Positions 22,424 through 35,808 of a stretch of DNA of 64,000 nt are shown here, one piece after another; the stretch's first letter is position 1, and each line of letters opens with the position of its first letter. The translations under genes and the position numbers were made by a program. Origin of the DNA: Pseudanabaenaceae cyanobacterium SKYG29 (GTDB taxonomy: Bacteria > Cyanobacteriota > Cyanobacteriia > Pseudanabaenales > Pseudanabaenaceae). The DNA is taken from the NCBI GenBank assembly GCA_025055675.1, contig JANWWT010000003.1:186001-250000 (forward strand), read 5' to 3'. The notes beneath the pieces are model-generated. The model searched no databases, had not been told where the DNA came from, and worked only from the letters and a program-made list of their open reading frames with translations.

Positions 22424-23980
22424 ATGCCCAGAGGTTGGCTGCTTGTTCTTTTCCCGCTATTTTACTCCCAGGGAGCAATTGCCCAGGAATTAATAAAAAT
22501 TAAGGGCTTCGTGCTAAAGGGGAATACTGTGTTTTCAGATGCGGAGATTTTGACAGCGGCAGCTCCTCTGATCGGCAGGGAAGTATCATTTAGTGACCTC
22601 TTGGATTTAGAAGCACGTATCACTCAGAAATACGTAGAGGCTGGCTATATTAATTCTGGTGCGAAAATCCCCGCAGGACAAATCCTCTCCCCCAAAGATG
22701 CCGTCATCACCATTGAAATTATTGAGGGTGGTCTGGAAGAAATCACGGTTACGGGACTCCGCAGGCTTGACCCTAATTATGTGCGCTCCCGCTTGGCAGT
22801 GGCTGGTGCATCTCCCTTGAATCAAAACCGACTGTTGGAAGGATTACAATTACTGCGGCTTGATCCCTTGATTAGCAGTGTCACAGCAGAGTTATCACCT
22901 GGTCCTAATCCCAATTTGAGTCGTTTGGATGTGGTTGTAACGGAATCTGAACCTTTTGAGTTGAAAGTAAATGTCGACAACGGCAGGTCTCCTGCTGTAG
23001 GTAGTGTTCGTAGAGGTGTTACATTTGGTTACCAAAATCTCTCCGGCATCGGCGATAAACTTTCTGCTAATTATGTCAACACAGATGGCAGCAATGCTTT
23101 TAGCTTTAATTATCTAGTTCCTGTCAACCCCCTCAACGGTACTCTATCTTTGGAGTATGACCGCACCAGCAGTACTGTGATTGAACCTCCTTTCGATCGT
23201 TTGAGCATATTGGGGGAGTCTCCTACTTATCGCATTACCTATCGTCAACCTGTGTATCAAACTCCCCTGCAGGAATTAGCTCTGGGTTTAACTGCTTCCT
23301 ATCAAGCGAGTCAATCCACCCTGGGGGGGGAGCCATTTCAATTAGCACCTGGGGCTGACCCTGGGGGAAACACTCGCATTGCAGCTATTCGTTTCTTTCA
23401 AGATTACCTGACCCGCGGTAGGCTGGAAGTTTTCCAAGCTCGATCGCAATTTAGTTACGGTGTCGGCTTACTGGGAGCAACGATTAACCCTGATCCCCCT
23501 GATAGTCGGTTCCTTGCTTGGCGCTTCCAGGGACAATATGTCCGATCGTTGGGTGCTGATAGTCTGTGGGTGACCCGTGTTGATACCCAATTAGCGAATC
23601 GCCCTCTGGTACCCCAAGAACAATTTGCTGTGGGCGGTTTTCGCAGTGTACGGGGCTACCGACAGGACACTATTTTGGCTGACAGTGGTTTTTTCCTGTC
23701 CACAGAGGTGCAAATACCGATCGCGCGCTTCTCTCCCCAAGATGTTTTACAAGTAATTCCCTTCGCTGATTTTGGGACAACTTGGAGTGCTGGTGCTACT
23801 CCTGGCTTGGCTGCTCGCAACGGTACACTCTATTCTCTGGGGTTGGGACTGCAATTTCGTCTAGGCGATCGGTTGACAACAAGGTTAGATGTTGGTGTTC
23901 CTCTCAATCTCACCGACGCAGCAGGCAATGCTTTGGGCACAAACAACATTTTGTTTTCCCTGGAGTACAGGGCTTTCTAA
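22424..23980 (+). CDS. TpsB outer-membrane transporter (ShlB/FhaC/HecB family)
   Basis: A protein of 518 residues. A signal peptide (1-21, ending GAIAQ) is followed by two POTRA-like modules (IKGFVLKGNTVFSDAEILTA and ITVTGLRRLDPNYVRSRL) and a 16-strand barrel. The barrel has the conserved loop-6 motif VGGFRSVRGYRQD and ends in an aromatic residue (SLEYRAF). It would secrete the large haemagglutinin-like protein encoded 1.6 kb downstream on the same strand (two-partner secretion). The two Uma2 genes lie between transporter and cargo. Confidence 0.92.
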   Translation: MPRGWLLVLFPLFYSQGAIAQELIKIKGFVLKGNTVFSDAEILTAAAPLIGREVSFSDLLDLEARITQKYVEAGYINSGAKIPAGQILSPKDAVITIEIIEGGLEEITVTGLRRLDPNYVRSRLAVAGASPLNQNRLLEGLQLLRLDPLISSVTAELSPGPNPNLSRLDVVVTESEPFELKVNVDNGRSPAVGSVRRGVTFGYQNLSGIGDKLSANYVNTDGSNAFSFNYLVPVNPLNGTLSLEYDRTSSTVIEPPFDRLSILGESPTYRITYRQPVYQTPLQELALGLTASYQASQSTLGGEPFQLAPGADPGGNTRIAAIRFFQDYLTRGRLEVFQARSQFSYGVGLLGATINPDPPDSRFLAWRFQGQYVRSLGADSLWVTRVDTQLANRPLVPQEQFAVGGFRSVRGYRQDTILADSGFFLSTEVQIPIARFSPQDVLQVIPFADFGTTWSAGATPGLAARNGTLYSLGLGLQFRLGDRLTTRLDVGVPLNLTDAAGNALGTNNILFSLEYRAF

Positions 23981-24025: not shown

Positions 24026-24775
24026 ATGGTTGTTGCTGTTAACTCTCTGCCTGACCACACCCAACTACCTGAATCCGATGGTGCGATCGTGGAAAACTTC
24101 GCCGAACATCCCCAAAGCATCTTGCTCACCAGCGCCATTTACCCCATCCTGCAGCAACTCCATCCCGATGGTCAGTTCACCATAGGGCAAGACAGCGGCA
24201 TCTACTGGCAAATAACCGCAGACCCCCTCAAGGGCTGCATAGCACCAGATTGGTTTTATGTCCCCAATGTACCCCCTATGCTCGAGGGCAAATACCGCCG
24301 CTCCTATGTCCTGTGGCAGGAGAAAGTCCCACCTTTGATTGTGATGGAGTTTGTGTCAGGGGATGGCAGAGAAGAGAGAGACCAGACTCCCCCAAGCCCT
24401 GGTTGCAAGCCAGGCAAGTTTTGGGTGTATGAGCAGGGGATAGGGGTTCCGTATTATGTCATTTATGAAGTCAGCCCAGGGAGAGTGGAGGTTTATCATT
24501 TGGTCAACGATCGGTATCAGCGGCTGGTTGCCAAAGAGGGGGGGCAGATATTCATTCCTGAGATGGGAGTGGGATTGGGGATATGGCGGGGGTGTTACTG
24601 TGGCATGGAGTTGCCCTGGCTGCGCTGGTACGACAGGGAGGGGAAGCTGCTGCCCACAGGGGAAGAACGGGCGGAGCTGGAGCGTCAAAGAGCAGAACAG
24701 GAACGACAGCAGAAGGAAAAATTAGCAGCTAAACTCCGATCCCTAGGCATTGACCCTGATACTTTGCAAGAATGA
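24026..24775 (+). CDS. Uma2-family (DUF820) putative PD-(D/E)XK nuclease, copy 1
   Basis: A protein of 249 residues. The nuclease-like core has APDWFYVPNVPP (metal Asp), VMEFVSGDGREERDQT (the Glu-x-Ser/Arg motif) and KFWVYEQGIGVPYYVIYE (Lys and Tyr), as in Uma2 proteins. A C-terminal coiled coil follows (ELERQRAEQERQQKEKLAAKLR), ending in LGIDPDTLQE. Such proteins are very numerous in cyanobacteria and their role is unknown. The second copy follows at 24798 and is nearly identical over the first 150 residues. Confidence 0.85.
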   Translation: MVVAVNSLPDHTQLPESDGAIVENFAEHPQSILLTSAIYPILQQLHPDGQFTIGQDSGIYWQITADPLKGCIAPDWFYVPNVPPMLEGKYRRSYVLWQEKVPPLIVMEFVSGDGREERDQTPPSPGCKPGKFWVYEQGIGVPYYVIYEVSPGRVEVYHLVNDRYQRLVAKEGGQIFIPEMGVGLGIWRGCYCGMELPWLRWYDREGKLLPTGEERAELERQRAEQERQQKEKLAAKLRSLGIDPDTLQE

Positions 24776-24797
24776 GCAGTCCATTTGGAGTCCAGCC

Positions 24798-25589
24798 ATG
24801 GTTGTTACAGTTAACCTACTCCCTGACCACAATCAACTACCCGAATCCGATGGTGCGATCGTGGAAAACTTTGCTGAACATCCCCAAAGTATCTTGCTCA
24901 CCAGCGCCATTTACCCCATCCTGCAGCAACTCCATCCCGATGGTCAGTTCACCATAGGTCAAGACAGCGGCATCTACTGGCAAATAACCGCAGACCCCCT
25001 CAAGGGCTGCATAGCACCAGATTGGTTTTATGTCCCCAATGTACCCCCCATGCTCGAGGGCAAATACCGCCGCTCCTATGTCCTGTGGCAGGAGAAAGTC
25101 CCACCTTTGATTGTGATTGAGTTTGTGTCAGGGGATGGCAGAGAAGAGAGAGACCAGACTCCCCCAAGCCCTGGTTGCAAGCCAGGCAAGTTTTGGGTGT
25201 ATGAGCAGGGGATAAGGGTTCCCTACTATGGGATTTATGAGGTGAGCAAGGGGGCGGTAGAGGTGTATCACTTGGTCAACGATCGGTATCAGAGGATGGT
25301 TGCCAATGCTCGAGGGCATATATTCATTCCGGAGATGGGGGTGTCGTTGGGGATATGGCAGGGATGCTACTGTGGCATGGAATTACCCTGGCTGCGGTGG
25401 TACGATGGGGAAGGGAAGTTGCTGCCCACGGGTGAAGAACGAGCAGAACTAGAGCGCCAAAGGGCAGAACTAGAGCGCCAAAGAGCGGAATTTGAGTATC
25501 AACGCGCAGAACAGGAACGGCAGCAGAAAGAGAAACTAATAGCCAAACTCCGATCGTTAGGCATTGACCCTGATACACTACAGACATAA
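24798..25589 (+). CDS. Uma2-family putative nuclease, tandem copy 2
   Basis: The start at 24798 aligns exactly with the start of copy 1 (MVV-VN-LPDH-QLPESDGAIV); a longer frame back to 24750 overlaps copy 1 and is not needed. The core motifs are unchanged (APDWFY, IEFVSGDGREERDQT, KFWVYEQGI). The main difference is the coiled-coil tail, which has two extra heptad-like units (RAELERQ, RAEFEYQ), about 14 residues. DNA between about 24880 and 25200 is almost the same as 24100-24420, so the duplication is recent or kept alike by gene conversion. Confidence 0.85.
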   Translation: MVVTVNLLPDHNQLPESDGAIVENFAEHPQSILLTSAIYPILQQLHPDGQFTIGQDSGIYWQITADPLKGCIAPDWFYVPNVPPMLEGKYRRSYVLWQEKVPPLIVIEFVSGDGREERDQTPPSPGCKPGKFWVYEQGIRVPYYGIYEVSKGAVEVYHLVNDRYQRMVANARGHIFIPEMGVSLGIWQGCYCGMELPWLRWYDGEGKLLPTGEERAELERQRAELERQRAEFEYQRAEQERQQKEKLIAKLRSLGIDPDTLQT

Positions 25590-25602
25590 GTTGGGGGCAC
25601 AT

Positions 25603-28600
25603 ATGGACATCGATCGGTTACTCTCTCATTCCCTGCACATCCTCAGTATTTTGGTACTGTGGGGTGTTCCAGGGAGAGCACAGATTATTCCCGATCGGAC
25701 TCTTGGAGGGGAGACTTCTGTTGTTATCCCCAACGTGACAATTCGAGACCTACCGGCGACACGAATTGATGGTGGTGCCGTCAGAGGAGTCAACCTATTT
25801 CATAGTTTTCAGGAATTTAATGTCAATACAGGTCAGGGAGTCTACTTCAGCAATCCTGGGGGTATTGAGAACATCATCACTAGGGTAACAGGGGGAAATG
25901 TTTCCAATATCAATGGCACCTTGGGAGTCTTGGGGGAGGCTAACCTATTCTTTACCAATCCAGCGGGTATAGTTTTTGGTGGTGGTGCCCGTTTAGATTT
26001 GCAGGGGTCATTCCTTGGGACAACAGCTAATAGTTTTATGTTTCCCAACAACGTTGAATTCAGTGCCACCAACCCTACTGCCCCACCTTTGTTAGTCGTC
26101 AACATTCCTGTGGGATTGCGGTTTAGGGAGAATGCAGGAGCGATAGACGTAAGGACTGCCAACAGAGACGGCACAGGAAAACTGCAAACCAGCTTAGCAA
26201 CGAACCGAGGAAAGACATTGGCTCTCGTTGGTGGGGCAGTAAATCTTGTGGGGGGGGTAGTGTCTGCACCAGCGGGTTTTCTGGAAATTGGCAGTGTCCG
26301 ATCGGGAGATATAAATATTCAGCCGAACATGATTTTGCGCTACAGTGACGACACCATTTTTAGCGACATTAGCCTGAGAGATGTTGCTGGTGCTTACAGC
26401 AGCGATGGCAATATACAAATCCAGGGCAGGAACGTGCAACTGAGGAATGGGGCGCAGGTTTTTGCCGGCACTACAAGTAGTAAAGATGGTGGCAGTCTTA
26501 TCATCAGAGCATCTGAATTGGTAGAAATCGTAGGAGAATTGCCAAGTTTTGTTGATGCATCGGTTCTACCGGGAGCAGAGGGGAAGGGCGGCAGCTTGAG
26601 GATCGAAACTCCCACTCTCCGTTTAAGTGATAGAGCTTCAATTACCACTGATACGTTTGGCAGAGGCGAGGGAGGAACTTTGGTCATCGTAGCATCTCAA
26701 GCTATGGAGGCAAGCCGTAGCAGCATTTCTGCCAGCGTTGGTGTGGGAGGGCAGGGAAAAGGAGGTAACATAACCATCAAAACACCTACCCTGCGGTTGA
26801 CTGATAGAGCCCAGATTTCCAGCACTACTCTTGGCAAGGGGGATGGCGGAACAGTATTCATTAAATCAGATAAACTGGTAGAGGGAAGAGGTCCCGGCAT
26901 CGTCATTGACACGTCCGTGCAACCGATAGCAACAGGACAGGGGGGCAATCTAACGATCGAGGCTCCCACGCTCCGTTTGACTGAAGGGGCCCAGATTTCT
27001 GCTAGTACCTTTGGCAGGGGAGATGGAGGGACAGTATTTATTAAAGCCTCTCAGCTCTTGGAATTGCAGGGCAGATCGCTTGATGGCAAGATTGCTAGTG
27101 ATATTAGTGCAGATGTTGGACCAGAAGCAGAAGGCAGGGGAGGTAACATATTCATAGATACTCCTGTTCTCCGTTTAGTGGAGGGAGCACAAATTGGTAC
27201 TGCCACCTTCGGCAGAGGGGACGGGGGAAACCTATTTATCAAGGCATCCCAACTAGTAGAAGCCACAGGGAATAGCCTTATCAGTGCCTCTGTGCAGCCA
27301 GGAGCCGAAGGGAAGGGGGGTAATTTAGTCATTACAACTGATACTCTCCGCCTGTCTGGAGGAGCCCAAATTTCCAGCGGCACTTTTGGTAAAGGGGACG
27401 GAGGGACTCTAGCTATTGAAGCTTCCCAACTCCTAGAAGCAATTGGTAGATCAAGCACTGGTAAAGCTGCTAGTGGAATTTTTGCCAATGTTGCTGTAGG
27501 AGGTGAAGGCAAGGGCGGTAATTTAACGATTGAAACACCCACGCTTCGGTTAACTGAAGGAGCACAAATTGCCTCTGGCACCTTTGGTAGGGGCAATGGA
27601 GGTAACCTCTCCCTCAAGGTCTCTCAGCTCTTAGAAGCTAAGGATTCTGGTAGCCTCATTGATGTATCCGTCCAGCCACAAGCAGAGGGAAAGGGCGGCA
27701 ATTTATCTATTGAGACTGCCACTCTCCGTTTGACTGGGGGGGCAAAAATTCAAGCCGTTACCTTTGGCAAAGGTGATGGGGGAAACCTATCTATCAAAGC
27801 CTCTCAATCAGTAGAAGCAGTAGCAAGAGGGCTTGACGATTTGGCAAGTGGTATTCGGGCAGATGTTGATGCTGGGGCAGAAGGGAAGGGTGGGGATTTA
27901 ACAATAGAGACCCCTATTCTCCGTCTAACTGAGGGGGCGCAGATTGCAGCTGCCACCTTTGGCAGAGGAAAGGCAGGGACTGTGCTCATTAAAGCCTCGC
28001 AACTTCTGGAAGCAAGCGGTTCTGGTACCGCTATAGGTGTCTCTGTGCAAGAGGGAGCAGAAGGAAGCGGTGGTAATTTATCCATCGAAACTGCTATTCT
28101 CCGTTTAACTGGGGGGGCTTTTATTTCTGCTACCACTGATGGCAAGGGGGATGGTGGTTCTCTATTTGTCAGGGCATCTCAACTCCTAGAGGCAAAGGGT
28201 AGAGCACCGACCGACAATTCACCAACTATCATTCGAGCGCAGGCTAGATCAAGGGCAGCAGGGAAGGGGGGCAATTTAACGATCGAGACTCCTCTTCTCC
28301 GTCTAGGTGAGGGAGCGAGTATTTCTGTGAGTGACTTTTCGGGTGCCAAAGGTGCAGGTAGCCTGCAGATTACTACTGATGCTCTAAGCATTGACAACTC
28401 TAGTATTACTGCCTCTGCTCTTAGAGGAAGTGAAGCAAACATTGTGATTAACGCTAGCGATGTACGACTGAGGAACAACAGTGAAATCGAAGCCAATGCC
28501 TTTCGCAATGCCACTGGGGGTAACATTACCATCAATGCGAACACCCTGATTGGCTTTCCCAACACAAACATCACAGCCAACGCTGAGAAGCAAGGCGGTA

Positions 28601-29163
28601 GAATTGCCATTACTGCTAAGGCAGTTTTGGGTTTTCGCACTCTTTCCCGTCCTGAAATTCAAAGATTACTGGGCAGAGAAGACTTGAGTAATTTCAACCC
28701 TTTCAGAGATTTCCCCAACAGCGCCAATATTCTGGCGATTTCCACTACCAATCCTGACCCCAATCTGAGCGGGCAAGTCAACATCAGTACTCCAGAGGCT
28801 GACCCCAGCAAGGGCTTGGTCAATCTTCCCCAAAACACGGTTGATCCTTTGCAGTTAGTCAACAGCAATGTCTGTCGAGTACGGCAGGGCAGTCAGTTTG
28901 TGATCAAAGGGAGAGGAGGAGTGCCCCCAACAGTTGGGGATAATTTTCGCTCAGAGACGGAGGTGGGTCTAGCGGATGCTGTGGCGCCTATTGTAGCAAG
29001 TCCTTCCACCAGGGGGGAGAAAAACACGATCGATAAAGGTGAGACACCCCCTGCCCTAGGCTGGGTGGCAGACGGCAAAGGGAATGTGGTACTGGTGGAC
29101 TACGACCCTAGAGGAAAGTTAGTGCGGCTTGGTGCCTACCAGCAGAGATGTAGGTTGCCCTGA
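25603..29163 (+). CDS. filamentous-haemagglutinin-type secreted protein (TpsA) with tandem beta-helix repeats
   Basis: About 1186 residues. The start at 25603 has GGGGG upstream and opens a signal peptide (ILSILVLWGVPGRAQ). Residues about 20-290 form the TPS secretion domain: PDRTLGGETSVV, FHSFQEFNVNTGQGVYF, SNPGGIENIITRVTGG and FFTNPAGIVFGGGARLDLQG, the last matching the conserved NPNGI/NPxGIxFG box. About 600 residues of tandem repeats follow (see separate entry). A C-terminal region contains NVCRVRQGSQFVIKGRGG and WVADGKGNVVLVDY, typical of cyanobacterial members. TpsB at 22424 should export it. Confidence 0.9.
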   Translation: MDIDRLLSHSLHILSILVLWGVPGRAQIIPDRTLGGETSVVIPNVTIRDLPATRIDGGAVRGVNLFHSFQEFNVNTGQGVYFSNPGGIENIITRVTGGNVSNINGTLGVLGEANLFFTNPAGIVFGGGARLDLQGSFLGTTANSFMFPNNVEFSATNPTAPPLLVVNIPVGLRFRENAGAIDVRTANRDGTGKLQTSLATNRGKTLALVGGAVNLVGGVVSAPAGFLEIGSVRSGDINIQPNMILRYSDDTIFSDISLRDVAGAYSSDGNIQIQGRNVQLRNGAQVFAGTTSSKDGGSLIIRASELVEIVGELPSFVDASVLPGAEGKGGSLRIETPTLRLSDRASITTDTFGRGEGGTLVIVASQAMEASRSSISASVGVGGQGKGGNITIKTPTLRLTDRAQISSTTLGKGDGGTVFIKSDKLVEGRGPGIVIDTSVQPIATGQGGNLTIEAPTLRLTEGAQISASTFGRGDGGTVFIKASQLLELQGRSLDGKIASDISADVGPEAEGRGGNIFIDTPVLRLVEGAQIGTATFGRGDGGNLFIKASQLVEATGNSLISASVQPGAEGKGGNLVITTDTLRLSGGAQISSGTFGKGDGGTLAIEASQLLEAIGRSSTGKAASGIFANVAVGGEGKGGNLTIETPTLRLTEGAQIASGTFGRGNGGNLSLKVSQLLEAKDSGSLIDVSVQPQAEGKGGNLSIETATLRLTGGAKIQAVTFGKGDGGNLSIKASQSVEAVARGLDDLASGIRADVDAGAEGKGGDLTIETPILRLTEGAQIAAATFGRGKAGTVLIKASQLLEASGSGTAIGVSVQEGAEGSGGNLSIETAILRLTGGAFISATTDGKGDGGSLFVRASQLLEAKGRAPTDNSPTIIRAQARSRAAGKGGNLTIETPLLRLGEGASISVSDFSGAKGAGSLQITTDALSIDNSSITASALRGSEANIVINASDVRLRNNSEIEANAFRNATGGNITINANTLIGFPNTNITANAEKQGGRIAITAKAVLGFRTLSRPEIQRLLGREDLSNFNPFRDFPNSANILAISTTNPDPNLSGQVNISTPEADPSKGLVNLPQNTVDPLQLVNSNVCRVRQGSQFVIKGRGGVPPTVGDNFRSETEVGLADAVAPIVASPSTRGEKNTIDKGETPPALGWVADGKGNVVLVDYDPRGKLVRLGAYQQRCRLP
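26491..28360 (+). repeat. tandem ~66-72-residue repeats inside the TpsA gene
   Basis: The unit reads roughly EGKGGNLTIETPTLRLTEGA, then Q-I-A-TFGRGDGGTLFIKASQ, then LLEA-G and a variable stretch of 10-25 residues before the next EGKGGN. About nine units are visible. Alternating units carry a longer insert (for example SLDGKIASDISADVGPEA or SSTGKAASGIFANVAVGGEG), so there is also a higher-order two-unit period. Right-handed beta-helix coils would explain this. Confidence 0.8.
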
Positions 29164-29164
29164 G

Positions 29165-29797
29165 CTAAAGGGGGGCTTTAGCCAGTTCTGGCAGCTCCAG
29201 CTCTTGGAGAAGTTTTAGCCAAGCTTTGCGTGCCTCTACATTTTGGGGATTTGCCACTACCTGGCTGGCAACAGTATCTACCTTGTCTAACCAGGGAGTA
29301 GTTTTCCCTTCAGTATCCCTACCAGTATGGCTCTCCAAAACCACCCAACTGTTTTGTTCACAGGGCACTTGGAAAGTCCATCGATAGGTTCTCCCTGTGT
29401 CCAAAGTCTTTCCTTGCACATTTGGCACAGCCACCCGCACTAAACCAGCTTTGCCTGTCAAGGAAATAGTAGTGCGATAGATGTCATTATCCTGGGTATC
29501 CTGTAGCACAAACTCCGCCGATCGAATTTGTGGCGGCAATTGGGGCAGATAAAACCAGAAACGAGGAGTAGGGCTACTGGTTAAAGCCCAAGCTTTGGCA
29601 GGGTCAGGCACCAAAGCAATAGGAGTAACTTGGGGTGAACAGCCACGACTGGCAGCGCCCTTACGTCTCCCCCCTGGGGCACTCCTACCCAAAACCATGC
29701 TCCAGACACTAGTCGGCTCGTTCTCCTGGGCAGGCAAAGGTAAGATCAGCCCGATCGTGGCAGCCATCATTGGTACAAACAACCAGAAATTTTTCAT
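29165..29797 (-). CDS. DUF928 protein, exported
   Basis: About 210 residues. The start at 29797 opens a signal peptide (MKNFWLFVPMMAATIGLILPL, cleavage near AQE). The mature part has RKGAASRGCSP, the Ala-Leu-Val-Pro element, FWFYLPQLP and YRWTFQVPC, all DUF928 features; the two cysteines may form a disulfide. DUF928 genes are regular neighbours of CHAT, CHASE2 and haemagglutinin genes in cyanobacteria, but their function is unknown. The stop codon is one base from the stop of the TpsA gene on the other strand. Confidence 0.85.
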   Translation of the reverse strand: MKNFWLFVPMMAATIGLILPLPAQENEPTSVWSMVLGRSAPGGRRKGAASRGCSPQVTPIALVPDPAKAWALTSSPTPRFWFYLPQLPPQIRSAEFVLQDTQDNDIYRTTISLTGKAGLVRVAVPNVQGKTLDTGRTYRWTFQVPCEQNSWVVLESHTGRDTEGKTTPWLDKVDTVASQVVANPQNVEARKAWLKLLQELELPELAKAPL

Positions 29798-29841
29798 TAC
29801 CAGACTCCAAACCGAACAGGGACAGCTCAAACTACCAAACT

Positions 29842-32800
29842 TTACAGTCGATTTCTATTATGAGCTATTTTGGTAGAGTAAGACAGGAGATGTGTCCCCC
29901 CTTGAGCTAAGATCATAGAAACAATTGTTGGTACAAAAGGTATCCACAGCCCCTTGGCAAATAGGAGAAAGTAGACAATAAATAATGCTAGGCAACCAGC
30001 AAGTGTAGTACCCAGGAAGATAACACGAGTACGAGATATGCGATAAATTATACAGCCGATCCCTGCCCCCACAAACATCCAAAGATAGTCTTGCCAAAAT
30101 GGCAGAGGGCGAAGCAAAGTTCTCCCATCCAAAACAGCGCTGACAAGTTGACTAACCATTTGCCCTTGTATATACAATCCTGCCACTCTTCCTTTACTAA
30201 TGGGAGTCTGCCAATAATCATCAGAACTGGTACTGGTGACACCAATCAGGATAATTTTACCTTTAATGCGTTCAGGCGGAATTTCCTCATTCAGAAAATC
30301 ACGTAATGACAGAGAAGGAGCTAGATTTTGTACCGATCGGTTAGAACGATAGCCGAAACTCTGCACTGCATCAACAGCACGATAGTTGAGCAAAATTTGA
30401 TGACCACGCATATCCACTCTTTGGTAGCCACCACTATGGGATTCTAAGGGGAATAATTTAACTCCACCAATTCGTATAAGTCCCCCTTCGACCGCTGGGC
30501 TAACCCCTTTACTGCGTAAGTAATGCAGAGCTACCTGTGTAGCAAAACCCAAACTAGCAACACATTTTCCCTCTAACTTTGGCGGGGTCATAAATACTAG
30601 TTGCCTGCGCACAATATCATTATCATCAGGGACATCACTGAAACCCACCTGCTCTTTCCTTAAACCCGTAGGAGGTGGTATTTCTGGTACATCAATTTCA
30701 GGATCAGCAACCTTACACACCCCGATTAAATTACTTTGGGATGCATAGAGATTGGTAATAGTCCCAGTATCAGGCTCGCCGTCTCGATAAATATCTAGCC
30801 CGATCGTTTGAGCTCCTAGGGCATTTAATTTCCTAATTGTCAATTCCAGAGCTGCATCTGCGATCGACCCCCTTCTCTGCCAACCTTTTTCATCTTGAAA
30901 ACTAAGGTCTTTGTCATCTATGGTGATAAATACTAAGCGTTCATCGGGAAACTCACCTGGTCGTATCCGCAACAGTAAATCATAGGCAAATAGTTCTACC
31001 CCCTGCAGTAAACCTACATATCGTACTGCTAAAACTGCAAAAGTCGACAGAACAAGAGGGAGTAAAGATTTTATAGAGGTAAGAGGATGTGGCTTAGGCA
31101 GAGCTACGGTAGTTTTAGCAAAGGTTGGCGGCTGGTTATCCAAGGACTGTAGTGCTAACAGAGCTGTTTTGGCATCTTTATAGCGATCGGCAGCTTTATC
31201 AGCAATACACTTGAGTAGAAAACTAGCAAATCCCTCTGATATTGATAATCGTTGTGCCAAAGAAGCAGGTTCCAAATTATCACTGAGTATTGTCAATCCA
31301 TTTAGACACTCTATAGCAACTATCCCTAGGGCGAAAATGTCACTAGCAAACACAGGATTATTGTAGTATTGCTCAACGGGCATATATTTGGGAGTACCAA
31401 CACGGATAGACAAGTTCAAGTTAGTACCGACATTTTCCTTGACAACACCGAAGTCAATCAACACTATTTTTTGATCAGAGCTTCGCCTGATTAAATTTTG
31501 GGGCTTAACGTCTCTGTGAATGAAGTTGTTAGAGTGCACAAAGGATAAAACATTAAGTACATCCTCTACTAATTGTTTGACATAATCTTCAGAAAATTTA
31601 GTAGCCTGTGCTAGTTCCTGATCAAGGGTTATGCCTTCTATAAATTCCTGCACAATAAAATAATTGTCACCTTCCCAGAAACAACCATAGAAACTAGGGA
31701 TTTGGGGATGACTACCCAATTTCTGCAAAACATTTGCCTCCTTGAGAAATCTTTCTACAAGAGCTTGTTTATCTTTTCCTTCCCTAAACAATAGCTGTTT
31801 TATGGCTACAAATCTACCATCACTTTGTACAGCTCTGTAGGTTTTGCCAAATCCCCCCTGCCCCAAAACCCCCAACACTTTGTATCCTCTACTCTCTAAA
31901 ATTCCAATCGCAGGATCAACAGCCATCAGGAGAGTTTCTTCTTCATCACGATCGGGCAATGTGACATTGAGACTAAAGGGAGGTGGAGGAAAAATATGTT
32001 TCCAAAAGAGAAATTTACCAATCAATAAACTGTTTTGCCATATGATAGGTAACCAGCTAATATAGGGGAAGTGTACCTGCCAAGCTGTTAATTTCTCCCT
32101 CGCACGCCGAACTGATAAACATAATGAATTATGGTTGTAAAATTCTTCTAAAAAATGTCCCAAAAATTGGTGGTTGATATAGCCGGGTAGGGGATGGATC
32201 ATTGCTACAATTTGCCCTAAGCCCAAGGTTGTCAGTTCCCTCGCTAACTCTACAGCATTATAGGAATTAATGATCGCTAACTTCAATCGCTGGTGAACTT
32301 GCTGCTTCAGCATGGACTTAAAATTTTTAATAGGTATGATTTCAGTCTGATTTAGTCTAAGATAGCCCTTGTCGATAGGGTGAAAGTTATAATCAGCAAA
32401 GTATATTGCTGCAAAATTTTGTGTATTAAGAACTTCGATTAGAGCCTTTGTTGTAGGCTCTTCTAGGTAGCATAGATTACTACCCATAAATTTCTCTAAC
32501 ACTTGTCGGTCAGCACTGCCGCCAGTATGACCATTATGTCCTATAATGACTAAAAGTCTGCCTGTATTATCATCGGTTGACACAGATAAGCTAGGGCTAT
32601 GGTAACCCAGGGAAAAGGTAGCATGGGAGTAGTTGTCAAAAAATTCCCAGAGATGAAGGGGTAAGGTTTGTATTTGTTGATCCTCGGTTGTTAGAGTGAA
32701 AATTATTTCATCTTGATCGTGAAAATAACTTAATAGATAGTCATTTATTTCCTGGAAATAATCTGCTTGTAACCACCTATTTATTCCCTGCTTTAACTCT

Positions 32801-33081
32801 ACAGATATTGTATCTAACTCTCGTATGGAAGTGTCCAAATTTCCCCCATTGTTAATAGTTATCTCATCTTGACACCTAATTTTCAACAAGCTGTGACTAA
32901 CATAGCTATGCAGAATTTGCCAGCGCTTGTGAGTTGCACATATCTCTGCAGGAGAAGGGAGTTTACCAGTTACCACTCCCTGGCGCTGTAAGACACTATT
33001 TTTAATTTCTCCTACTTCGCAGCGCACTGCATAGCCATCTAGCACCTGCCCTGTGAGTTCTAGGTTGATATATTTGACCAC
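29842..33081 (-). CDS. fusion: degenerate CHAT domain + Ser/Thr kinase + CHASE2 sensor
   Basis: A protein of 1079 residues. Residues about 1-360 follow the CHAT fold (VKYINLELTGQVLDGYAV at the start), but the expected HG and SACET catalytic positions read YFADYNFHP and IINSYNAVE, so the peptidase dyad is absent. A Hanks-type kinase follows (about 400-660) with GQGGFGKTY, VAIKQ, HRDVKPQNL and DFGVV all intact. After a membrane helix near 680 comes a CHASE2 domain (about 695-985; FITIDDKDLSF, IGLDIYRDG, ILIGVTS) and three more helices. The protein probably senses an extracytoplasmic signal and phosphorylates Ser/Thr targets inside the cell. Confidence 0.88.
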   Translation of the reverse strand: MVKYINLELTGQVLDGYAVRCEVGEIKNSVLQRQGVVTGKLPSPAEICATHKRWQILHSYVSHSLLKIRCQDEITINNGGNLDTSIRELDTISVELKQGINRWLQADYFQEINDYLLSYFHDQDEIIFTLTTEDQQIQTLPLHLWEFFDNYSHATFSLGYHSPSLSVSTDDNTGRLLVIIGHNGHTGGSADRQVLEKFMGSNLCYLEEPTTKALIEVLNTQNFAAIYFADYNFHPIDKGYLRLNQTEIIPIKNFKSMLKQQVHQRLKLAIINSYNAVELARELTTLGLGQIVAMIHPLPGYINHQFLGHFLEEFYNHNSLCLSVRRAREKLTAWQVHFPYISWLPIIWQNSLLIGKFLFWKHIFPPPPFSLNVTLPDRDEEETLLMAVDPAIGILESRGYKVLGVLGQGGFGKTYRAVQSDGRFVAIKQLLFREGKDKQALVERFLKEANVLQKLGSHPQIPSFYGCFWEGDNYFIVQEFIEGITLDQELAQATKFSEDYVKQLVEDVLNVLSFVHSNNFIHRDVKPQNLIRRSSDQKIVLIDFGVVKENVGTNLNLSIRVGTPKYMPVEQYYNNPVFASDIFALGIVAIECLNGLTILSDNLEPASLAQRLSISEGFASFLLKCIADKAADRYKDAKTALLALQSLDNQPPTFAKTTVALPKPHPLTSIKSLLPLVLSTFAVLAVRYVGLLQGVELFAYDLLLRIRPGEFPDERLVFITIDDKDLSFQDEKGWQRRGSIADAALELTIRKLNALGAQTIGLDIYRDGEPDTGTITNLYASQSNLIGVCKVADPEIDVPEIPPPTGLRKEQVGFSDVPDDNDIVRRQLVFMTPPKLEGKCVASLGFATQVALHYLRSKGVSPAVEGGLIRIGGVKLFPLESHSGGYQRVDMRGHQILLNYRAVDAVQSFGYRSNRSVQNLAPSLSLRDFLNEEIPPERIKGKIILIGVTSTSSDDYWQTPISKGRVAGLYIQGQMVSQLVSAVLDGRTLLRPLPFWQDYLWMFVGAGIGCIIYRISRTRVIFLGTTLAGCLALFIVYFLLFAKGLWIPFVPTIVSMILAQGGTHLLSYSTKIAHNRNRL

Positions 33082-33189: not shown

Positions 33190-35808
33190 TTACAGCCAAT
33201 TGCCAATTAAAATGTAGGGTGCCCAAAAATAGGGACGGTTCTCCACTTGTAATGCTGCTAGTTGTGCTTTGCGTAATGCTAATGCCTTGGTTACCCCAGG
33301 TTTACTTAATTCTGTGTAAAATCGCTCCATAAAAAACGCGGTAAAGACATCATCCACGGGCCACAAGGTAGCCAAGGTACTTCTCGCTCCTGCTCTGATC
33401 GCTACCCCTGCTAACCCTAATGCTGCTCGATTGTCTCCAGCAGCTGTTTCACAAGCACTCAGAACTAATAATTCTATGGGCTTGCCACGCTCTGTTGCCC
33501 GTAAAATTTGATCAAATTCCTTGACATTGAGGAGCTGATCCCACAACAATACAAAAGTCTCCTCAGCAATAGAACTAAATTTGCCGTGGGTAGCAATGTG
33601 AACGATCGAGACATCTTTTGTTGCCAACCTCTCTTGCAAATTAAAACTGGTGAAGTTAGGGTTAAGTAGTTTATCTTTTGTTTTTACTTTCCCTTGCACT
33701 GACACTAATTCTGACTCTACTTGCGGCAATGCCACAAAACTCCTACCTTGTACTGCGCGCTCTTGACTAATTCCTGCTACTAGTGCTGCGATCTCTACCT
33801 TAGCTAAGGGCTGGGGATCAACTAATTGTAAGCTAGGAGCAACAGCAACAGGATATTTCTGAATTAGATATGCCTTGCCATCATAGAGGGCTGCCATCGG
33901 TACATTGCGTAAGATGCCATCTAAAACAAAGACTAGATTTATTGGCTCATTTTGTTGAGCTTGGATCGCTGCTAATCTGTCTTGTACAGGACGAATTAAC
34001 CAGCTATAAACTGTCTGGGATAGCTGACGTACTTGCGCCGATCGAGTCCGATCGGGTAGATAGGTTTGTAGTGCCTTCAGAGTTGATTCTACGCTAGTCT
34101 TTTCTACAGGAATTGCATAGTGCAACAGATTCTGATCCCCTGGGAGTTTAACAATCACATCTAGGCGACGGTAACCAATCACAGGGTAAAATACAGCAGC
34201 ACGGGGGTCGATCGCATCAATTACCTTGGGTTTGACATTAATGCAAGCTTCGCGGAAAAAGTCATCCAGTTCTGCTAGCTGTAACGCCTCAATTACATTT
34301 CTTGCCTGCTGCAAATTTGACTGGCTAGGATTCCTGTCTGCCAACAGTAAATCTACGTATTCTCGATAGATTGGTTCAATACTGTCACGAAAGGTAAACT
34401 GAATTTCTGGATTGATTGCCACTAGGTCACGCCGCAGGGGTTGTAGAGTTTGAAAGGCGGCAGCATAAAAACTTAAACTGTCTGCTGTTCTTTGCTGGGC
34501 ACGGCTGATTCTCCCTAACTGCCACTGCCAAAGATAAGTTATGTCAGATGCTCCTGCCGTTGCCGCTAAAGCTAGAGCCTGGAGAGTAAGAGTTTCTGCC
34601 TGTTGCAACTTACCTTGCTGGTGATACACTCCTGCTAGATAGCCCACTGCATAGGACTCTGCTCTCTTGTTCTCCAAGGTCTGCGCCTCTGCTATGGCGG
34701 TCTGCAACAAGTCTATGATTTTCATCCAGGGTATCTCTTTTTCTGAAGAAAAGTTAGGGCGACAGGACTGCATAATCGGCGATGCCTGTAACTTGGCTAA
34801 TTCTGATAGGGCTGGATGGGATTGACATAACAGATGCTGAGCTAGCTCAAGGCGTGTGAAAACAGTGAGTTGACTAGGAGATGAGGTTTGTAGGTCTGCC
34901 TCGATCGATGGAACAAGAGAATCTATTGCTTCACTTCTATCGATTGCTAGCCGCAATAGCCCTAACTTGCTTGCCAAGGTATTCCCACTCAGCAAATAAT
35001 GCTTGTGTGCTAGTTCGCGGTAATGTCTCTGTAAATCTGTATTGGCAGTGTTCGTTTGACGTATCGCTAGGGTACGATATGTATCTCCTAGGCTGAGATA
35101 AACCCTTTGTTTCTCTTGAGTTGTTGTTACGTAGTTCAAACTTAACTGCAGCAATTGTTCTGCTTGGGTAAGTTTCCCGACAACCCGTAATGTGTCAGCT
35201 AATTGCCGCAATGCTGTACTAAGTTGCTGGGGATTGATTTGATTATTTTTGTTTAGATTGTCTATGTCCTGCTGCGTAATTTGGCATTCTTGCCCTCTCC
35301 ATCCTAATGTCTGCAAAATAATACTACAAGACCTGCTATATAACCCTAACGATCGTAGAGCGATCGCTTGATTTAGTTGATTTTGGATCAGTCTTTCTGT
35401 TTGCCCCAGGTCTGCGTAGAGTTTGGCTGCCTTCTGCCAGGAGGCAATCGCCTGTGCTGGTTTGCCCCTCTCTTGCCATAGTTGTCCATGAATATCCAGT
35501 GCCTGGGCTAGTAGTAATTTATTCTCTATAACACCAGATGATAACAGGGAGAGACTCCGATCGATAGTTGTAGTAGCTTTCTCCCATTCCCCCAGTTTTT
35601 GCCAGGCAAGGGAGATATTACTTAGAGCCATAGCTTGATTGGCTATATCCCCCTGTCGTTCAAATTTTCGCAATGAATCTTGCCACAGAGCTACTGCTAA
35701 TTTGTAGTTACCCTCCTCGTAAGCTTTTCTTGCCAGTTCTGAAGCAGAGAGGGACAGAGACACAACGCACAAGCAAAAGACAACCGTGCCAACCCATTGC
35801 TGTAACAT
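33190..35808 (-). CDS. exported TPR-CHAT caspase-like peptidase
   Basis: A protein of 872 residues. An N-terminal signal peptide (VGTVVFCLCVVSLSLSASE) leads into TPR-type repeats (about 25-480; AYEEGNYKLAVALWQDSL, AIASWQKAAKLYADLGQTER). The C-terminal CHAT domain keeps the catalytic histidine in VHIATHGKF near residue 737 and the cysteine in LVLSACETAAG near 783, with ATLWPVDD after it. This makes it the likely active partner of the catalytically empty CHAT fusion 108 bases downstream. The substrate is unknown. Confidence 0.9.
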   Translation of the reverse strand: MLQQWVGTVVFCLCVVSLSLSASELARKAYEEGNYKLAVALWQDSLRKFERQGDIANQAMALSNISLAWQKLGEWEKATTTIDRSLSLLSSGVIENKLLLAQALDIHGQLWQERGKPAQAIASWQKAAKLYADLGQTERLIQNQLNQAIALRSLGLYSRSCSIILQTLGWRGQECQITQQDIDNLNKNNQINPQQLSTALRQLADTLRVVGKLTQAEQLLQLSLNYVTTTQEKQRVYLSLGDTYRTLAIRQTNTANTDLQRHYRELAHKHYLLSGNTLASKLGLLRLAIDRSEAIDSLVPSIEADLQTSSPSQLTVFTRLELAQHLLCQSHPALSELAKLQASPIMQSCRPNFSSEKEIPWMKIIDLLQTAIAEAQTLENKRAESYAVGYLAGVYHQQGKLQQAETLTLQALALAATAGASDITYLWQWQLGRISRAQQRTADSLSFYAAAFQTLQPLRRDLVAINPEIQFTFRDSIEPIYREYVDLLLADRNPSQSNLQQARNVIEALQLAELDDFFREACINVKPKVIDAIDPRAAVFYPVIGYRRLDVIVKLPGDQNLLHYAIPVEKTSVESTLKALQTYLPDRTRSAQVRQLSQTVYSWLIRPVQDRLAAIQAQQNEPINLVFVLDGILRNVPMAALYDGKAYLIQKYPVAVAPSLQLVDPQPLAKVEIAALVAGISQERAVQGRSFVALPQVESELVSVQGKVKTKDKLLNPNFTSFNLQERLATKDVSIVHIATHGKFSSIAEETFVLLWDQLLNVKEFDQILRATERGKPIELLVLSACETAAGDNRAALGLAGVAIRAGARSTLATLWPVDDVFTAFFMERFYTELSKPGVTKALALRKAQLAALQVENRPYFWAPYILIGNWL

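Follow-up and report, generated by a model that had tools for sequence, protein, structure and literature searches.

What becomes of a protease domain when a receptor carries a second enzyme beside it? The question is raised by a gene of Pseudanabaenaceae cyanobacterium SKYG29 (contig JANWWT010000003.1), lying in a 64,000-nt stretch of DNA that we refer to as the window. Its product, 1079 amino acids long and read from a GTG start codon, joins an N-terminal domain resembling CHAT peptidases to a Ser/Thr kinase and a CHASE2 domain. The features discussed below are these (window positions; all but the first two lie on the minus strand).

22424..23980 (+), ShlB/FhaC-type outer-membrane transporter of the same secretion system as the next entry (Pfam)
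25564..29163 (+), exoprotein with a TPS (two-partner secretion) domain (Pfam)
29165..29830 (-), DUF928 protein, hydrophobic at its N-terminus, the downstream neighbour of the receptor gene (Pfam, hydropathy)
29842..33081 (-), receptor gene: pseudo-CHAT, Ser/Thr kinase, transmembrane segment (TM), CHASE2, TM
30052..31041 (-), CHASE2 match, residues 681-1010 (Pfam, trees)
31261..31884 (-), Pkinase match, residues 400-607 (Pfam, key residues)
31987..33081 (-), pseudo-CHAT domain, N-terminal, residues 1-365 (homology, structure model, fold search)
32260..32262 (-), Y274, codon TAT, at the place of the catalytic Cys (alignment)
32389..32391 (-), Y231, codon TAT, at the place of the catalytic His (alignment)
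33190..35808 (-), TPR-CHAT peptidase, hydrophobic at its N-terminus, the upstream neighbour of the receptor gene (Pfam; His and Cys kept)

Receptor domains and the missing catalytic pair

The kinase part is ordinary. Pkinase (PF00069) is matched with 143.6 bits (cut-off 31.7), the match stopping at profile position 205 of 263, and the G-loop (from residue 407), K428, HRD (522-524), N529 and DFG (543) are all present; by score, G-loop, Lys, HRD and DFG, this is a Hanks-type Ser/Thr kinase. CHASE2 (PF05226) is equally clear, with 166.6 bits against a cut-off of 26.3. CHASE2 receptors are defined by one transmembrane segment before the domain and several after it; here, apart from one peak within the kinase, hydropathy peaks only at residues 668-686 and 1020-1038.

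For residues 1-365, Pfam gives just one sub-threshold match. Of 97 related genomes, 47 nevertheless contain relatives of residues 2-394, and when 25 of these were built into a profile, it matched in at least 259 of the 388 genomes sampled from the class. PF12770 (CHAT) was matched by all of the 25 aligned domains except the window's own, for which there was no match with either the whole protein (E 0.5) or the isolated domain (E 0.1), so that the CHAT assignment rests on the relatives. Since 24 of the 25 match, the domain is, as judged by its kin, a divergent member of a large cyanobacterial CHAT family. A profile-profile comparison with the CHAT domain of the upstream peptidase gave a weak match (hhalign probability 8.9, E 0.0037), which pairs Y231 and Y274 with the His and Cys of that peptidase. 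In PDB sequences, a profile search with the N-terminal domain found no CHAT chain, its single match having an E of 0.68.

The window sequence by itself could not be modelled usefully (mean pLDDT 31), and the evidence on the fold therefore leans on an added relative. With that one relative (two sequences), the model of residues 1-365 reached a mean pLDDT of 50, with a core at about 173-333 mostly between 58 and 89 and residues 1-172 below 50; the fold evidence thus covers the core and leaves out the N-terminal third to half. In the modelled core, strands and helices are predicted to alternate, and Y231 and Y274 would lie immediately past strands 223-230 and 268-273, respectively. It is directly after these two strands that the His and Cys of clan CD peptidases sit. 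The top five Foldseek matches in the PDB were all SAVED-CHAT chains (best E 3.8e-07). Similarly, VIA-align superposed core residues 167-352 on SAVED-CHAT (PDB 8tl0) with a Z of 20.6, at 2.3 A over 172 residues; TPR-CHAT Csx29 of Craspase followed with Z values of 13.3 (8eex) and 12.1 (7y85), and caspases with values near 12-13. Homology and the partial model together support a caspase-like fold of the CHAT type. As a side observation, the transmembrane anti-sigma factor DdvA was the second-best structural match to residues 134-349 (Z 14.2 and 13.8; PDB 8rw5 and 8rot).

The catalytic residues were located by alignment with the 24 relatives, in which the family's FFAGHS and FNSCDG columns correspond to YFADYN and IINSYN in the window; the surrounding stretches are YFADYNFHP (residues 227-235) and IINSYNAVE (270-278). 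Changing GHS to DYN and NSCDG to NSYNA takes several codon changes at both motifs, which a single sequencing error would not explain. Cysteines within residues 1-365 are confined to positions 21, 48, 70, 204 and 321, none of them in the family's Cys column. Judging from this alignment, the window domain cannot be a Cys peptidase.

The loss is unusual within the family. Counting only rows with both columns filled, with identical rows merged and gapped rows set aside (7 for each of the first two sets), the window was the sole exception among the matches listed: His and Cys were both kept in 109 of 110 distinct rows, window included, in 116 of 117 once plasmid records were added, and in 138 of 139 distinct cores when lower-scoring relatives were also brought in. 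This last set is a non-random sample from among the matches listed, made up of the best-scoring matches, some 40 lower-scoring stretches, 38 genomes with middling best scores and the plasmid records. Even a very divergent relative, L095, keeps both residues. Further dead CHAT domains of this family may exist beyond the sequences compared.

A first-pass annotation had described a CHAT domain without its catalytic His and Cys, fused to a kinase with all key residues and to CHASE2. Each of these points holds, including the CHAT fold, which the modelled core bears out, and the catalytic dyad does not reappear elsewhere in the domain. The annotation's further idea, that the dead domain binds something or inhibits the kinase, is a possible reading that is weighed below. 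A kinase-CHASE2 receptor with a dead CHAT domain is thus real and well supported as an observation; the kinase is ordinary, its partner unusual.

Outputs of CHASE2 receptors with a DUF928 neighbour

The gene next to the receptor points to where it comes from. Where a locus spanned 9 kb or more and included 2.5 kb downstream, a DUF928 gene stood on the same strand beside 27 of 27 CHAT-CHASE2 genes, 23 of them within 100 bases. The window receptor likewise has an adjoining same-strand DUF928 gene, whose frame overlaps it by 12 bases. DUF928 was found beside none of ten genes combining kinase and CHASE2 (seven kinase-CHASE2 and three CHASE2-kinase loci), and beside none of seven genes listed as carrying this CHAT without CHASE2, a count that is at best 0 of 6, since L233 was listed there though its record names a CHASE2 protein.

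This CHAT type is an N-terminal domain with many partners: CHASE2, an FHA-ABC transporter, a periplasmic-binding-like domain, an nSTAND NTPase, and a cyclase together with CHASE2. In the distant relative L033, it may be fused to a TIR-like/AAA region. The order CHAT, class III cyclase, CHASE2 is given by Pfam in L090 (6834-9986) and L093, with proteins of similar length in L091 and L092; in all four a DUF928 gene follows the receptor and the CHAT His and Cys are kept. A second output alone thus does not kill the protease, and redundancy as the sole cause of its loss is weakened. In addition, a CHASE2-cyclase protein (L226) and, in a genome of the same genus, a CHASE2 protein with a SpoIIE-type phosphatase domain (G002; L194, 12131-14347) both have DUF928 beside them. 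The enzyme slot is modular, with an output that differs across CHASE2 and DUF928 units. A separate case is a CHASE2 protein at L230 (5717-8308), which has a different N-terminal CHAT type and is followed by DUF928.

From what is established, namely the domain order, the loss of both residues, the gene context and the position of CHASE2 outside the kinase-CHASE2 clade, we infer an order of events, a topology, a partner in DUF928 and a role for the dead domain. The ancestor would have been a common cyanobacterial CHAT-CHASE2 receptor, whose likely output was a cytosolic CHAT protease. A kinase would then have been inserted between CHAT and CHASE2 and have become the output, and both catalytic residues would have gone from the CHAT site. 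A sensor on the envelope side is suggested by the pairing of the two genes and by the hydrophobic N-terminus that DUF928 carries: CHASE2, lying beyond the cytoplasmic membrane and probably partnered by the exported DUF928 protein, would sense a state of the cell surface, perhaps one linked to the neighbouring TPS exoprotein and exported TPR-CHAT peptidase, and would pass the signal to the cytosolic Ser/Thr kinase. The dead CHAT most likely still folds and serves that kinase in docking or regulation. Kinase-regulating pseudo-enzymes are well known in animals and plants. We give this reading as a whole a probability of about 0.55. A broader formulation, in which a surface-sensing unit of CHASE2 and DUF928, often with two-partner secretion genes and an exported CHAT peptidase nearby, swaps protease, cyclase, SpoIIE-type phosphatase and kinase outputs, and in which the ancestral protease has here become a dead domain that regulates the incoming kinase or docks its substrates, is put forward tentatively, at somewhat short of even odds.

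Fate of the dead domain and source of the kinase

The strongest competitor to a docking or regulatory module, though itself doubtful, is that the dead CHAT has been a drifting relic ever since the kinase took over, kept because the kinase frame runs through it. Its terminal branch measures 5.25 against a median of 0.29 (18x), compared with 1.19 against 0.42 (2.8x) for the window CHASE2, all lengths being saturated. Conserved residues are lost broadly as well. Outside the two motifs the window keeps 33 of 53 conserved columns, where the 24 relatives keep 84-100%; within the motif columns it keeps 7 of 19. A loss confined to the catalytic motif is not supported by these counts. In line with a relic, G+C falls from 47.2% over positions 20000-45000 to 43.4% in CHASE2 and 38.9% in the CHAT domain.

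Against drift alone, retention is graded by conservation: the window keeps 22 of 32 invariant columns (69%), 11 of 21 nearly invariant ones, then 29 of 58 and 19 of 66, and 17 of the 114 most variable (15%), so some constraint persists. Nor does branch length alone mean decay, since L095 has a CHAT branch of 7.61, longer than the window's, and yet keeps H and C. A repurposed module could account for the long branch and the broad loss of residues just as well as a relic could. An orthologue that would show conservation was sought at several depths, and its absence is to the relic's credit. A close orthologue of the three-domain protein was missing from the 97 relatives and the 38 genomes of the order, from the matches listed in the 388-genome draw of the class and from 25 plasmid records with a match, and both other genomes of the genus lack it. 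A scan of GTDB contigs, which detects close kin only because its patterns were taken from the window protein, likewise found none and confirmed the single distant relative L033. A docking or regulatory module is, tentatively, our first choice for the dead domain, with the relic second.

The kinase could also have been there first, in a known kinase-CHASE2 receptor that gained an N-terminal CHAT later. Such receptors share the identical order of kinase, TM and CHASE2, and their kinase part is about 36-44% identical to the window's. The trees make this history improbable. When 61 CHASE2 domains were placed in a tree, those of the 11 kinase-CHASE2 proteins made up a clade (95/91) to which the window's does not belong, and forcing the window CHASE2 into that clade was rejected (p-AU 0.0008, in a test chosen after the tree had been seen). 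The window kinase, too, falls outside the clade of kinase-CHASE2 kinases (100/99), and the lack of DUF928 beside kinase-CHASE2 and CHASE2-kinase genes speaks against the same scenario. The window CHASE2 instead sits among CHAT-CHASE2 proteins, on a long branch and with weak support (94/56), and CHAT-CHASE2 proteins are also its closest BLAST matches. A point against our reading comes from G002: in its similar gene cluster, the CHASE2 of the CHASE2-SpoIIE protein falls, on a long branch, to the kinase-CHASE2 side. Among 149 distinct frames with this CHAT type, some of them cut by the end of the sequence stretch compared, 68 had a CHASE2 match and the window's alone a kinase match. Insertion of the kinase between CHAT and CHASE2, followed by the death of the protease site, therefore fits best and is the most likely course.

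It is hardly credible that the domain is still an enzyme through other residues or tyrosine-based chemistry: further residues do lie near the site, such as H234 just past Y231, but no Cys ends the catalytic strand in the model, which places C204 and C321 in another strand and a helix, and we know of no precedent.

Known receptors and the secretion locus

The modelled core shares its fold with SAVED-CHAT (8tl0) and with TPR-CHAT Csx29 of Craspase (8eex, 7y85), which are known proteases of CRISPR systems. Nearer kin are the cyanobacterial CHAT-CHASE2 proteins (e.g., WP_015217839.1, 'CHASE2 domain-containing protein'), which have the same CHAT and CHASE2 types in the same order and a DUF928 neighbour, whereas they lack the kinase and keep His and Cys. 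The CHAT-cyclase-CHASE2 proteins share an enzyme insert between CHAT and CHASE2 as well as the DUF928 gene next door, and differ in having a cyclase instead of a kinase and intact CHAT residues in all four cases.

Ser/Thr kinases with CHASE2 were listed as cbSTKII in a 2007 survey, in the portion accessible to us (PMC2176072). These proteins likewise combine a Hanks-type kinase and CHASE2, whereas CHAT is absent from them, the loci examined show no adjacent DUF928 gene, and their CHASE2 and kinase domains fall in clades separate from ours. Accessible parts of PMC2853523 and PMC7475262 describe cyanobacterial caspase homologues with Tyr in place of His; among orthocaspases this replacement is frequent, at 40 of 98 sequences (PMC7475262). 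Such pseudo-orthocaspases share a caspase-fold domain and the exchange of His for Tyr with our protein, whereas their domain is p20 rather than CHAT and their Cys is mostly replaced by Ser or Asn, not Tyr; the same parts of both papers mention no kinase fusion, and one of the two lists a single metacaspase with CHASE2. For HetF, the introduction of PMC8406250 reports that mutation of the active site abolishes function. PMC5587647 names a group of CHASE2 and DUF928 genes in one Nostoc, the portion available giving no function for the pair.

No bacterial receptor kinase with a fused CHAT pseudoprotease was found in the literature searched, and no paper on CHAT-CHASE2 in cyanobacteria, on a CHAT pseudoprotease or on CHAT with two-partner secretion; what was accessible on CHAT with CHASE2 does not describe a CHAT-kinase-CHASE2 fusion. 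The kind of receptor is thus already known, and CHAT-kinase-CHASE2 with a dead CHAT is a new variation on it. Nature seems here to have exchanged one signalling output for another. How a sensor is rewired to a different output can be tested simply with this gene, and its relatives draw attention to a receptor-DUF928 pair that is so far unstudied.

On the other side of the receptor gene, the upstream neighbour had been read in the first-pass annotation as an intact, exported CHAT peptidase. Intact it is: besides TPR matches, it has a CHAT match of 198.6 bits, and the seven proteins aligned show no variation at its His (ATHG) and Cys (SACE) columns. Export is probable from the hydrophobic N-terminus. 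The idea that it forms an active/dead couple with the window domain is unlikely, because the two differ in architecture and, given that N-terminal stretch, probably lie on opposite sides of the membrane.

Among the 27 CHAT-CHASE2 loci, a TPR-CHAT gene was present in 10 and a TPS gene in 5. The window has the complete set of ShlB, TPS exoprotein, DUF928, receptor and TPR-CHAT. Comparable sets occur in G002 (ShlB, TPS, TPR-CHAT, DUF928 and the CHASE2 protein with a SpoIIE-type phosphatase domain) and, as annotated, on an Anabaena cylindrica PCC 7122 plasmid (CHASE2, DUF928, CHAT and filamentous haemagglutinin). At two further loci, L208 (11137-15621) and L226 (9697-13485), TPS and CHAT domains (PF05860, PF12770) are found in one polypeptide beside CHASE2 and DUF928 genes. 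By their domain matches these are secreted proteins with a peptidase domain of their own, which ties the exported peptidase to the secretion system. Finally, between the ShlB and TPS genes of the window lie two Uma2-type genes (24026-24775 and 24750-25589) that are 88% identical over 262 aligned positions; the first has a Pfam match, and the pair is, by this identity, a tandem duplication.
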